A stretch of 64,000 nucleotides of DNA. Origin: Candidatus Eisenbacteria bacterium. Its GTDB lineage: Bacteria; Orphanbacterota; Orphanbacteria; Orphanbacterales; Orphanbacteraceae. The first letter of the stretch is position 1. The number at the start of each line of letters is the position of its first letter. Below, piece by piece: positions 409 to 6,266 of this stretch. The stretch spans positions 1-64,000 of the forward strand of contig JAFGGD010000008.1 in NCBI GenBank assembly GCA_016930695.1. The letters are read 5' to 3'. The notes below the pieces were generated by a model. That model did not search any database, was not told where the DNA came from, and saw only the letters and a program-made list of their open reading frames with translations. A program made the position numbers and the translations under genes.

Positions 409-1251
409 ATGGATCAGGCCCTATTCCGAAAGTTCTGCAAGCTCGCCCACGACAAGGCGGGCATCCATCTGAAAGAGGGGAAGGAATCGCTCGTGCAGGC
501 GCGTGTGGCGAAGCGGCTCCGCGCCCTCGGGCTCGATCATCCCCGGGAATACCTCGAATACATGGAGAGGGACGAGAGCGGCGAGGAGCTGGTTCTCTTT
601 CTCGACGTGATCTCCACCAACTTCACCAACTTCTTTCGCGAGCCCGATCATTTCGATGTGTTGGCCGAGGACGTGAAGCGCCTCGTCCTGGAAAAGGGGC
701 GTCGCCGGATCCGTCTCTGGTCCGCCGCGTCCTCCAGCGGCGAGGAACCGTACACGATGGCGATCACCGTGCTGGAGGCCTTGGAGGGCGCTCCCGCGGA
801 CTTCCGAATCCTCGCCACCGATATCTCCACCCGGATGCTCGCGCGCGCCGAGGAGGGAGTGTACGCCGCGGGACGGCTCGAGGGTGTTCCGAAAGCCTTC
901 CGGCACAAATACTTCGAGAGGATCGGCCGGCGGGGTTCGGAGGAGGAGTCCTACCGGATCCGGCCCGCGGTCCGCGAGCGGGTGGTGTTCCGGCGGCTCA
1001 ATCTCGCCGATCCGCCCTTCCCGATGCAGGGGCCGCTGGACGTGGTCTTCTGCCGCAACGTGATGATTTATTTCGACCAACCGGTCCGACAACGGCTCGT
1101 CTCGGAAATCGAGCGGTTGCTCGCGCCGGGAGGTCTTTTATGCATCGGACATTCCGAGACGCTGAGCACGGTGAAGAATCACTTGAAGTATATCAGGTCT
1201 TCGGTTTTTCGGAATAGCGTGGATGCGGAGGTACTGCAGGGGGCTTCATGA
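409..1251 (+). CDS. cheR: Chemotaxis protein-glutamate O-methyltransferase CheR
   Basis: Transfers methyl groups from S-adenosylmethionine to glutamates of chemoreceptors, for adaptation. The 280-residue length is normal for the family. The N-terminal helical domain (about 1-80) is followed by NFFREPDHF (about 68-76), the SAM-binding region WSAASSSGEEPYT (about 104-116) and the late CRNVMIYF motif (about 212-219), all CheR hallmarks. The start ATG has only a modest purine-rich site upstream (GGAACGAAAGA). Its end overlaps the cheD start as ATGA, so translation is probably coupled. It is the first gene of a six-gene adaptation operon. CheA and CheW are not in the window. Confidence 0.95.
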   Translation: MDQALFRKFCKLAHDKAGIHLKEGKESLVQARVAKRLRALGLDHPREYLEYMERDESGEELVLFLDVISTNFTNFFREPDHFDVLAEDVKRLVLEKGRRRIRLWSAASSSGEEPYTMAITVLEALEGAPADFRILATDISTRMLARAEEGVYAAGRLEGVPKAFRHKYFERIGRRGSEEESYRIRPAVRERVVFRRLNLADPPFPMQGPLDVVFCRNVMIYFDQPVRQRLVSEIERLLAPGGLLCIGHSETLSTVKNHLKYIRSSVFRNSVDAEVLQGAS

Positions 1252-1802
1252 ACAGCGCAACAAAGGAAGCGACCGGACCGGTGTGTTCGGGGGAACACCG
1301 CGAGGAACAAGCATCGAAGAGCGCCAACCAGATCACGGTGGATATCTCCGACATCCAGGTCAGCGCGGATCCGGGCGCGGTGATCGTCACCTACGCGCTC
1401 GGCTCCTGCATCGCCGTGATGGTGCACGATCCGGTTCGCGGCGCGGGGGGCATGATTCACTACATGCTTCCCCTTTCCGCCACTTCGCCCGACAAGGCGA
1501 AGAGCAAGCCGGCCATGTTCGCCGACACGGGTATACCGTTGCTGTTCGAAAAAATGTACGAACTGGGTTGTCAGAAAAAAGACATGGTGGTCAAGGTGGC
1601 CGGCGGAGGCGCCCTTTACGACGACAAAGGGACCTTTAACATCGGCAAGAGGAACTACACGGTTCTCCGTAAGATGTTCTGGAAAAACGAGATCATCATC
1701 GCCGCCGAGGACGTGGGCGGGGCGAAGTCCCGCACGGTTCGGCTGCACGTGGGGTCCGGACGTGTCGTCGTACGTTCGCAGGGAAAGGAGGCGGACCTGT
1801 GA
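1248..1802 (+). CDS. cheD: Chemoreceptor glutamine deamidase CheD
   Basis: Deamidates receptor glutamines to glutamates and in many bacteria binds CheC/CheX-type phosphatases. The catalytic set is present: the Thr and Cys of VTYALGSC (about 44-51) and the His of MIHYMLP (about 65-71), as expected for the family. The length of 184 residues is near the usual 160-200, with an N-terminal extension of about 30 residues. The start overlaps cheR by four bases, and the end overlaps the next gene as GTGA. Its place in the same operon as a CheX-like gene supports a CheD-phosphatase partnership, though that is inference. Confidence 0.93.
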   Translation: MNSATKEATGPVCSGEHREEQASKSANQITVDISDIQVSADPGAVIVTYALGSCIAVMVHDPVRGAGGMIHYMLPLSATSPDKAKSKPAMFADTGIPLLFEKMYELGCQKKDMVVKVAGGGALYDDKGTFNIGKRNYTVLRKMFWKNEIIIAAEDVGGAKSRTVRLHVGSGRVVVRSQGKEADL

Positions 1803-2668
1803 TCGGGAAAGAAGAAATCCTGAAGCGGATCCAGAGCCTGCACACACTTCCCGCGTCCACGGCACGTTTGAGCGCGCTCGTCAACGATCCGAAGGCCGGG
1901 GCCTCGGACTTCGAGGCGGTGATCCGCCCCGATCCGGCGCTGACCGCAAACCTTCTTCGTATGGCCAACTCGGCCTATTTCGGTCTCTCCCGGGAGGTGA
2001 CTTCGGTCCGGCAGGCCATCACCCTGCTCGGAATCAAGCGCGTCTACGAAGTGGCGTCCAGCGTCACCTTCTCGAGGATGCTCCCGGCGACCGTGCCGGG
2101 TTACGAGATCGACGCGACGCACTTCTGGCTCCACTGCGTCGGTGTCGCCGTCCTCGCGGAGCGTCTTGCCGAAGAGCTGGGACGGAAAGCGCCCGACCTC
2201 ATCTTCACAGCCGGTCTGCTCCACGACATGGGCAAGCTGGCGATCGGATCGTTCCTCGTGGACGCTTCCGAGGAGGTCTTCGGTCGCGTGCTGGACGACA
2301 GCATCGATCTGGCGGCGGCGGAGAAAATCGTGCTCGGGATGGATCACGCCGATGTCGGCTCCGACCTCGCCGAGCATTGGAATCTGCCCGGTCCCGTTTC
2401 CTGGGCGGCGCGTTGGCACCACAATCCGGGCGAGGCTCCGGAGAATGTGGACCGAAACCTGGTGGATCTGGTGCATGTCGCCGACGGACTCGCTCACTCA
2501 CTCGGCCTGGGCGCCGACCGTGGGGAGCTGGCGCGGACGATTCTCCCGAGCGCCATCGAACGCCTGGGGGTCAATGTCCGGAGGTTGGAATTCACGGCGA
2601 GCGAAACGATCGGTCAGATTTACGGGATGACCGAGCTCTTCTCGAAATGCGCAGGGGGAGTGGGATGA
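1799..2668 (+). CDS. HDOD domain protein in the chemotaxis operon
   Basis: A 289-residue protein made up essentially of one HDOD domain (HD-related output domain). The N-terminal part has LPASTARLSALVNDPKA and PALTANLLRMANSAYFG, the standard HDOD opening. Later come the LLHDMGKLAIG motif (about 140), HADVGSDLAEHWNLP (about 182) and a WHHNP end. HDOD proteins are generally regulatory or scaffold modules in signalling rather than proven phosphodiesterases. The start is GTG, overlapping the cheD stop as GTGA, and its own stop overlaps cheY as ATGA, so it is locked into the operon. The specific target is unknown. Confidence 0.9.
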   Translation: MIGKEEILKRIQSLHTLPASTARLSALVNDPKAGASDFEAVIRPDPALTANLLRMANSAYFGLSREVTSVRQAITLLGIKRVYEVASSVTFSRMLPATVPGYEIDATHFWLHCVGVAVLAERLAEELGRKAPDLIFTAGLLHDMGKLAIGSFLVDASEEVFGRVLDDSIDLAAAEKIVLGMDHADVGSDLAEHWNLPGPVSWAARWHHNPGEAPENVDRNLVDLVHVADGLAHSLGLGADRGELARTILPSAIERLGVNVRRLEFTASETIGQIYGMTELFSKCAGGVG

Positions 2669-3055
2669 GTTACAGCATTCTCGTGGTGGACGATTCCCGG
2701 ATCGTCCGCACGATGGTCAAGAAAACGATCTCCATGTCCGGAATGGACGTGCGGGAGATCTACGAGGCGGAAAACGGTAAACAGGCTCTCGATGTGCTCG
2801 GCAAGGAATGGGTGGATATCGTCTTCGCCGACCTGAACATGCCCGAGATGAGCGGCGTGGAGATGGTGGAGAAGATGTCCGAGGACAACCTGCTGGTCAG
2901 CATTCCCGTGGTGATCGTGTCCTCCGAGCACAGCGAGAAGCGGATCGAGGAACTGAAGGAGCGGGGCATCCGCGCCTATATTAAAAAACCTTTCCGCCCG
3001 GAGTGTTTCACGGACGTGGTCAAGGATGTCCTGGACGGCGTCGGCGGAGGTTCCG

Positions 3056-3066
<11 letters not shown>
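2665..3066 (+). CDS. cheY: CheY-type single-domain response regulator
   Basis: A receiver domain of 133 residues with no output domain. The acidic pair is in VVDDSR, the phospho-acceptor Asp in FADLNMPEMSG, the conserved Ser in VVIVSSEHS and the Lys in YIKKPF. It most likely carries the signal from CheA to the flagellar motor or another output. The start ATG overlaps the upstream stop by four bases. A longer in-frame reading upstream exists but covers the HDOD gene in another frame and is not real. The end overlaps the next start by 11 bases. No flagellar gene is visible to identify its target. Confidence 0.92.
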
Positions 3067-4601
<1,535 letters not shown>

Positions 4602-4688: not shown

Positions 4689-4720
4689 GAAAAAAGGCGG
4701 TCCCCGCGGGGGCCGCCTTT
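4689..4720 (-). terminator. Terminator for metK, possibly bidirectional
   Basis: An A run, GGCGGTCCCC, a short loop, GGGGCCGCC and TTTT form a stem with one bulged base, flanked by A on one side and T on the other. It can serve the minus-strand metK message and back up the cheB terminator. Confidence 0.75.
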
Positions 4721-4749
4721 TCATTCTTCGTCCGTTTGTGTAAGAACGC

Positions 4750-5880
4750 TCAGCGCTTTTCCGCCCCGGCGGAAGAGGGGACCGGCGCCCCCTCCCATGT
4801 GAAGCCGGGCCGGCCGAAATGTCCGTAGTTCACGGTGCTCTTGAAGATCGGCTGGAGCAGTCCGAGTTGATCGACGATCGCGCGCGGGGAGAAGTCGAAC
4901 CCGCAGACGAAGTCCTCGGCCCTCTTCTCGTCGCCGGTGCCGAAGGTGTCCACCTTGACGGACACGGGCCGGTTTCCACCGATCGCGTAGGCGACCTGGA
5001 TCTCCGCCCGATCCGCCAGCCCCTCCTCCACGACGCGACGCGCCACGTAGCGGCAGAAATAGGCGGCGCTCCGGTCCACCTTGGAGGGGTCCTTCCCGCT
5101 GAAGGCGCCTCCGCCGTGGCGGCCCATCCCGCCGTAGGTGTCGGCGATGATTTTCCGGCCCGTCAGCCCGCAGTCCGCCGAGGGACCTCCCTCCACGAAG
5201 CTGCCGCCCGGGTTGACGTGCACGGTCATGTCGTCGCGATGCCAATCGCCCAGCACGCGCGGGAGAAGCCCGTCCATGACGTACTCCTCGATCTTCGCCG
5301 GCGTCGCGGCGGCTTCGTGCTGCGTGGAGACCACCACCGTGGACAACCGCATCGGGGTGTTTCCATCATAGAGCACCGAGACCTGCGTCTTGCCGTCCGG
5401 CCGGAGGAAGGGGGCGCGGCCGCTCTTGCGGTCCTCCGCCAGCCCCTCCGAGAGGCGATGGGCGAGGTGGATCGGAAGGGGCATCAGCGTCTCCGTTTCG
5501 CGGGCGGCGAAACCGAACATGAGACCCTGGTCGCCGGCGCCCTGCTCGCCGCTCTCCTGGTCCACTTTGCGGGAGATCTCCGGCGACTGCTTGGAGAGGA
5601 AACGGTGGATCTCCACCGAGTCCGCGCAGAAGGGCTCGTCGGGACAGACATAGCCGACGGAGCGGATCGCGTCGCGGACCACCCGGTCCAGGTCGATTTT
5701 TCCGCGCGAAGTGATCTCGCCGCCCAGGACGACCGCGTTCCCTTTCGCCATCGTCTCACAGGCGACTCGGCTCTGCCGGTCCTGTTCCAGGTAAGCGTCC
5801 AGGATCGAGTCGCTGATCAAATCGCAGACCTTGTCCGGGTGCCCTTCGGTGATGGATTCCGAGGTGAAAACATACGCCAT
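4750..5880 (-). CDS. metK: S-adenosylmethionine synthetase MetK
   Basis: Makes S-adenosylmethionine from methionine and ATP. It has 376 residues, typical length. The N-terminus MAYVFTSESITEGHPDK carries the catalytic His of GHPDK. GAGDQGLMFGFA (about 115) and GGGAFSGKDPSKVDRSAAY (about 255) match the two family signatures. The frame is open for another 97 codons upstream, but that stretch is Arg/Pro-rich and non-conserved. The chosen ATG has GGAGGACCTCAG just before it. It is preceded by a long leader containing a SAM-I riboswitch, so the product probably represses its own synthesis. A convergent terminator separates it from cheB. Confidence 0.97.
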   Translation of the reverse strand: MAYVFTSESITEGHPDKVCDLISDSILDAYLEQDRQSRVACETMAKGNAVVLGGEITSRGKIDLDRVVRDAIRSVGYVCPDEPFCADSVEIHRFLSKQSPEISRKVDQESGEQGAGDQGLMFGFAARETETLMPLPIHLAHRLSEGLAEDRKSGRAPFLRPDGKTQVSVLYDGNTPMRLSTVVVSTQHEAAATPAKIEEYVMDGLLPRVLGDWHRDDMTVHVNPGGSFVEGGPSADCGLTGRKIIADTYGGMGRHGGGAFSGKDPSKVDRSAAYFCRYVARRVVEEGLADRAEIQVAYAIGGNRPVSVKVDTFGTGDEKRAEDFVCGFDFSPRAIVDQLGLLQPIFKSTVNYGHFGRPGFTWEGAPVPSSAGAEKR

Positions 5881-6139
5881 TCTGAGGTCCTCCAATATGC
5901 GAGCCCGGCGGGTCCCGTCGTTCCGCGGTTCCGCCGAGGCGGGGTACGCCGAGGGGCGGCGTTTACGCATGGAGCCCGAAGCTTCGCCCGATGACCGGTC
6001 GATGGGGTCCGAAACCGGACGGTGGGTCCGGTCCGGAGGTCCCGGTCCTCCTCCGGCGGGAAACGACCCGCGCCGGCGTGGCGGGACCCTCTTCCTGGCG
6101 GGACGACGATTACCTCGAAACGGTCCGATCGCTCGAAGC
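5881..6139 (-). promoter_or_regulatory. metK leader between riboswitch aptamer and start codon (expression platform region)
   Basis: About 260 bases with no supported gene. In the minus-strand RNA it holds several GC-rich stems, for example the RNA pairing at 6014-6032 (ACCGGAC with GTCCGGT around CCACC, followed by TT) and a GCGCCGGCG-type stem at about 6069-6080. Any of these could be the switching terminator, but I cannot fold it here. The Shine-Dalgarno sequence of metK is at about 5888-5893. Confidence 0.5.
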
Positions 6140-6231
6140 CGCATCGTTCCCGGTCGGGCTGGCCTGGGCACCGTGACGTCGCAGCCGGTTGCCGGGCGAG
6201 ATCAAAAGGCCTTCTCGCCTCTCGGGATGCG
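6140..6231 (-). ncRNA. SAM-I (S-box) riboswitch aptamer upstream of metK
   Basis: Read on the minus strand, the order of conserved elements is that of SAM-I. CGCATC opens P1, followed by CCGAGAGG, the P2 strands GGCGAGA and TCTCGCC around AGGCCTTTTGA, then CCCGGCAACC, then ACGGTGCCCA, a P4-like stem (AGCCCGACCGGG), and AACGATGCG closing P1 by pairing with CGCATC. GGCAACC and GGTGC are the most conserved core segments of the family. SAM-I aptamers bind S-adenosylmethionine and usually switch genes off. The downstream gene is SAM synthetase, the expected target, and a promoter fits so that transcription would begin at the aptamer edge. Confidence 0.87.
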
Positions 6232-6236
6232 ATTCC

Positions 6237-6266
6237 ATTCTATTCGGAATATCGGCCGATAGGCAA
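6237..6266 (-). promoter_or_regulatory. Predicted sigma70-type promoter of metK
   Basis: On the minus strand TTGCCT (6266-6261) is followed by 18 bases and TAGAAT (6242-6237). The expected start of RNA, about 6230, falls at the first base of riboswitch stem P1, which supports both calls. Confidence 0.6.

Follow-up and report, generated by a model that had tools for sequence, protein, structure and literature searches.

The locus considered here raises the question of which kind of SAM-sensing RNA, if any, stands ahead of metK in Candidatus Eisenbacteria bacterium (assembly GCA_016930695.1). The window, that is, the whole stretch of DNA analysed, comprises nucleotides 1 to 64,000 of contig JAFGGD010000008.1. 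A first-pass annotation had proposed a SAM-I riboswitch with a fitting promoter ahead of metK. A riboswitch of the SAM clan, the promoter and metK were all borne out, whereas the assignment to plain SAM-I was not, the RNA having no k-turn, a score below the family cut-off, and P5 and a probable PK-2 in addition. The features are listed in Table 1.

Table 1. Features of the metK leader and adjacent genes, in window coordinates
Feature	Position	Strand	Evidence or remark
Gene upstream of riboswitch, B3/4-domain protein	6961-6284		domain search
Sigma-70-like promoter TTGCCT-N18-TAGAAT	6266-6237	-	promoter scan, 9/12 matches; RNA start at or just before P1
SAM-clan aptamer	6231-6140	-	RF00162 search; all ligand-contact motifs
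P1, 5' strand CGCAUC	6231-6226	-	pairs with 6145-6140
J1/2 CCGAG, with SAM-contacting G11	6221..6225	-	RF00162 alignment, comparison with T. tengcongensis
P2, unbroken 7-bp helix, no k-turn	GGCGAGA 6219-6213 / UCUCGCC 6201-6195, loop AGGCCUUUUGA 6212-6202	-	100% paired
PK-1, P2-loop strand GGCCU	6207..6211	-	duplex test p 0.0055; comparison with L223
P3 with SAM-binding core	GGCAACC 6193-6187, GGUGCC 6172-6167	-	whole P3 6167..6193
PK-2 (probable), P3-loop strand GCGACG	6177..6182	-	duplex tests p 0.02-0.04
PK-1, J3/4 strand AGGCC	6161..6165	-	duplex test; comparison with L223
P4, 3-bp hairpin CCC(GACC)GGG	6149..6158	-	alignment, pair check
P1, 3' strand GAUGCG	6145-6140	-	pairs with 6231-6226
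P5 hairpin GCUUCGAG...UUUCGAGGU, 8 pairs	6112..6139	-	100% paired; orthologues have G-C for one G-U
PK-2 (probable), 3' tail strand CGUCGU	6103..6108	-	alternatively pairs with P4/J4/1/P1 3' strands
Shine-Dalgarno GGAGG of metK	5889..5893	-	read from sequence
metK, S-adenosylmethionine synthetase, 376 aa	5880..4750	-	Pfam PF00438, PF02772, PF02773; gene under control

A permissive search of the window with RF00162 (SAM) gave a full-length match at 6233-6138 on the minus strand (41.9 bits, E 2.9e-8). When the whole 3.78-Mb genome was searched with the same model, the metK-leader RNA ranked top (E 5.5e-8), and the next match, in C34 (19.7 bits, E 0.16), was taken as chance. The gathering thresholds are 44.4 bits for RF00162 and 41.1 bits for RF01725 (SAM-I/IV), and a scan of the window with all Rfam families at these thresholds reported no match. 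Two orthologues described below scored 38.1 and 34.7 bits with RF00162, and the RF01725 scores were 34.5 bits here and 38.3 and 37.4 bits in the orthologues, all under the cut-off; the RF01725 match of the metK-leader RNA extends past P1. With RF00634 (SAM-IV), the genome contained no match even when E values up to 10 were admitted. A covariance score below threshold, which the first-pass annotation had named as counting against its proposal, is formally what was obtained for RF00162, but the core is intact, and the low score is ascribed to the missing k-turn and the short arms rather than to a missing core. Free-energy folding on its own showed no preference for the aptamer (z -1.0) and did not recover it; plain free-energy folding was left out of structure decisions.

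The elements reported in SAM-I order on the minus strand (P1 CGCATC/GATGCG, GAGAGG, the P2 stem, CCCGGCAACC, ACGGTGC and AACGATGC) were all found again. The SAM-contact residues are the same as in T. tengcongensis SAM-I (A6 U7, G11, C44-A45-A46-C47, U57 G58, A87 U88), a list that we take to be established by the crystal structure of that RNA. P4 is present between J3/4 and J4/1 as in SAM-I, with 3 bp only. U64-A85, a tertiary pair of SAM-I known from covariation and visible in the crystal structure (PMC2258182), is replaced here by G-C; this compensated change lies immediately 5' of PK-1 and of the 3' strand of P1. The same compensated pair was observed in a SAM-I match below threshold in L136 (214-349, minus strand, 41.1 bits; J1/2 CC, J3/4 G64, J4/1 C85), but in that RNA P2 is k-turn-like and P3 contains a large insertion.

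The promoter, said to be placed so that the RNA would begin at P1, is present at that place, in the short gap between the B3/4-domain gene and the riboswitch; the scan found two promoter-like sites in the region against 0.1 expected. At the same placement, TTGCGC-N17-TATGCT was recognised by eye in the orthologues, under the threshold of the scan, and TTGACA-N18-TAGACT in the distant example L223. The metK leader transcript very probably begins at P1, as judged from these sites.

Relatives were sought in seven genomes of the same class and phylum. In two of them (G005 and G006, another genus of the same family) the same RNA stands ahead of a MetK that is 68% identical, with promoter position and gene order conserved, and in three other genomes of the phylum MetK is more divergent (51-54% identity) and no such RNA precedes it. 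The core, whose absence from related metK leaders had been named beforehand as adverse, is present in both genomes of the other genus. In the aligned leaders, conservation covers the position of the promoter, the aptamer and some 40 nt past P1 but not the remaining ca. 200 nt to the start codon, so that the conserved stretch exceeds the canonical SAM-I aptamer in length. Comparison of L088, L089 and L090 with window 4750-5880 revealed two divergent metK forms in one family (51-54% versus 68%), the riboswitch occurring with the 68% form only; this suggests that the metK-riboswitch unit was replaced or horizontally transferred. L005, a MAG labelled Desulfobacteria, contains the closest MetK relative (63%); a SAM-I of the regular type, having both k-turn and terminator (1796-1943), stands there before an unrelated ORF preceding metK (2944-4095).

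That the match is due to chance, or is a decayed and functionless relic, would agree with its scores under the curated cut-offs. This explanation is nevertheless highly improbable in view of the E value in the window, the position of the RNA ahead of metK, its retention across genera while the flanks diverge, and the conserved promoter.

A feature that separates the RNA from SAM-I is P2, which has neither the three-base bulge nor tandem G-A pairs. In SAM-I the k-turn is conserved and is described as essential, bending P2 back so that its loop is brought to J3/4 (PMC3651934), and P2 was interrupted in SAM-I controls sampled from 386 genomes. The P2 found here is unbroken and without internal loop, as in SAM-I/IV. 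A search with a model, R1, built from the three orthologues yielded no other RNA of such kind in 386 domain-wide genomes, and L223 among 396 sampled genomes of another phylum (47.7 bits, E 3.8e-7). The relatives known are three in number, two of them near and one distant. The L223 RNA, which stands ahead of a Cys/Met-metabolism PLP enzyme, agrees in spacing and likewise has a straight P2 of 7 bp (CCCGGGA/UCCCGGG), together with P4 and a P5-like hairpin. Three of the seven P2 pairs differ between the two RNAs on both sides, as compensatory double changes; since the straight P2 is kept with such changes in a second lineage, it is not regarded as decay. On sequence comparison the k-turn-less layout is real, the independent L223 case being the main evidence.

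The P2 loop is also complementary to J3/4 over 5 bp with no broken pair, as expected of PK-1 in SAM-I. The duplex energy was more favourable than that of shuffled sequences (p 0.0055 here, 0.006 in an orthologue and 0.015 in L223). The L223 loop starts with AGGCCU as in the window and faces AGGUU in J3/4, by which two G-C pairs become G-U. Among SAM-I/IV matches (28 from one phylum and a handful in a wider sample) P2 loops are small, and no convincing pairing of P2 loop with J3/4 was found by script and by eye in the parsed members, a few of which were misparsed. In L222, SAM-I and SAM-I/IV riboswitches were observed on the minus strand in one locus of about 3 kb (1501-1629 and 2934-3052).

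The conserved RNA reaches about 40 nt past P1, to about 6103. In all three orthologues pairing is complete both in P5 (GCUUCGAG...UUUCGAGGY) and between CGUCGY and GCGACG of the P3 loop, and one G-U/G-C change occurs in each of the two helices. Duplex tests of PK-2 gave p 0.04 and 0.017; with a wider tail the values, 0.32 and 0.12, were not significant, in a broad-window test of low power even for SAM-I/IV (median p 0.10 versus 0.63 for SAM-I). No clear PK-2 was found in L223 (duplex p 0.41). The P3 segment is UGCGACGGCACGGUGCC in the orthologues and UGAGACGGCACGGUGCC in the SAM-I/IV member L206, one base apart, and this difference is matched in the tail, the PK-2 pair being A-U in L206 and C-G in the orthologues. 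PK-2 is graded as probable in the metK-leader RNA, with somewhat better than even confidence. The tail after P5 may alternatively form a helix with J4/1 and the 3' strands of the flanking P4 and P1 (p 0.09-0.18 here, 0.0045 in L223), a pairing that appears in folds of G000, G006 and L223. The interval 6140-6266 first delimited for the element holds the aptamer and the promoter, but with the conserved P5 and the probable PK-2 strand the element is longer, extending to about 6103.

What distinguishes SAM-I/IV from SAM-I is that P2 is unbroken, that a P5 hairpin is present, that the P3 loop pairs with the strand after P5 as PK-2, and that PK-1 is lacking; SAM-IV combines both pseudoknots and lacks P4 (PMC6890682, PMC2864571). 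The RNA shares with SAM-I (S box, RF00162) the SAM-binding core, P1-P4, a pseudoknot in the place of PK-1, J4/1 and the control of a methionine/SAM gene; it differs in the straight 7-bp P2 without k-turn, in the shifted register and greater length of PK-1 (A62-C66), and in the extra P5 and probable PK-2. With SAM-I/IV (RF01725; env87, PDB 4L81) it has in common the straight P2, P4, P5, the probable PK-2 and a similar P3 segment, but it has PK-1, a long J3/4 and a J4/1, and its RF01725 score is 34.5 versus 41.1 bits. In having PK-1, a probable PK-2 and P5 together, the RNA resembles SAM-IV; in the latter, however, P2 is of the P2a/P2b type, containing an internal turn, P4 is missing, and the family model misses this RNA. 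As the k-turn is absent the RNA is not a standard SAM-I, and as PK-1 is present by complementarity it is not SAM-I/IV; by its sequence we regard it as a variant inside the SAM-I/IV superfamily, predicted to work like both SAM-I and SAM-I/IV.

The conserved 40 nt past P1 might instead be an ordinary expression platform (an anti-terminator or anti-sequestor hairpin) of a plain SAM-I with a drifted P2, in which case there would be no P5/PK-2 domain. The RNA of L005 is a normal SAM-I with k-turn whose J3/4-P4 (GCCAGCCCG) is nearly the same as in the window and which is followed by a P1-proximal strand that can base-pair with an intrinsic terminator's 3' arm, and the alternative tail pairing in the three folds mentioned above would likewise suit such a platform. 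This explanation deserves weight but is on the doubtful side, because the straight P2 is retained with compensatory changes in the second lineage, no U-run or terminator follows the RNA in the window, the P3 segment resembles that of SAM-I/IV members, and the orthologues score about equally with RF01725 and RF00162. Less plausibly, the RNA belongs to SAM-I/IV proper and the apparent PK-1 is a coincidence of GC-rich sequence. The straight P2, P4, P5 and probable PK-2 do match the SAM-I/IV parts list (PMC6890682), and RF01725 detects all three members, though with a score that stays under its cut-off. Such membership is unlikely given the small p values of PK-1 in two lineages (0.006 and 0.015) with G-C to G-U changes in L223, the lack of a convincing PK-1 among parsed SAM-I/IV members, and the P4 of those members, which mostly abuts P1; here, with a J3/4 of 8 nt and AAC as J4/1, the arrangement is that of SAM-I. 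Tentatively, at a little under even confidence, the RNA may represent a distinct SAM-clan architecture occurring in at least two phyla, with PK-1 but without a k-turn, maybe with P4, P5 and PK-2, which would link SAM-I to SAM-I/IV and in which a single strand following P5 would choose between PK-2 and invasion of P1/P4.

For function, the RNA is assigned with good confidence to the SAM-I/SAM-IV superfamily as an OFF riboswitch predicted to sense SAM and to control metK alone, the switching proposed here included. metK is convergent with a cheB-like gene of the opposite strand, from which control of metK alone follows. A chemotaxis-like cluster on the plus strand (409-4601), convergent to metK, comprises CheR-, CheD-, CheY- and CheB-like ORFs as identified by visual inspection of their translations, and a terminator-like hairpin lies between the cluster and metK (4692-4721).

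From P1 to the metK ATG at 5880, 259 nt were measured, in agreement with the leader of roughly 260 bases noted at first. A terminator scan covering the metK (minus) strand from P1 to the start codon did not detect the terminator that the first-pass annotation had suggested looking for in this leader. With no intrinsic terminator detected, the read-out is most likely control of translation or else termination by Rho. The excess of C over G 3' of the aptamer in the leaders is modest. With the aptamer forced, computed occlusion of the Shine-Dalgarno sequence became stronger in G000 (partner CUCC 5974-5971) and was hardly altered in two relatives; long-range sequestration of the Shine-Dalgarno sequence is not claimed, the computed occlusion being inconsistent between relatives. 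By homology, SAM very likely switches metK OFF. When SAM is plentiful, it would clamp P1, P4 and PK-2; at low SAM, the tail beyond P5, acting as the switching strand, would form the alternative helix with P4, J4/1 and P1 described above and dissolve the aptamer. The conformational change would lower metK expression at high SAM.

Lying below both Rfam cut-offs, the metK-leader RNA and its relatives are missed by automatic annotation. If the distinct architecture is real, a contact of the P2 loop with J3/4 on a straight P2 would represent an alternative construction of the same pocket, and would bear on the divergence of SAM-I, SAM-I/IV and SAM-IV.
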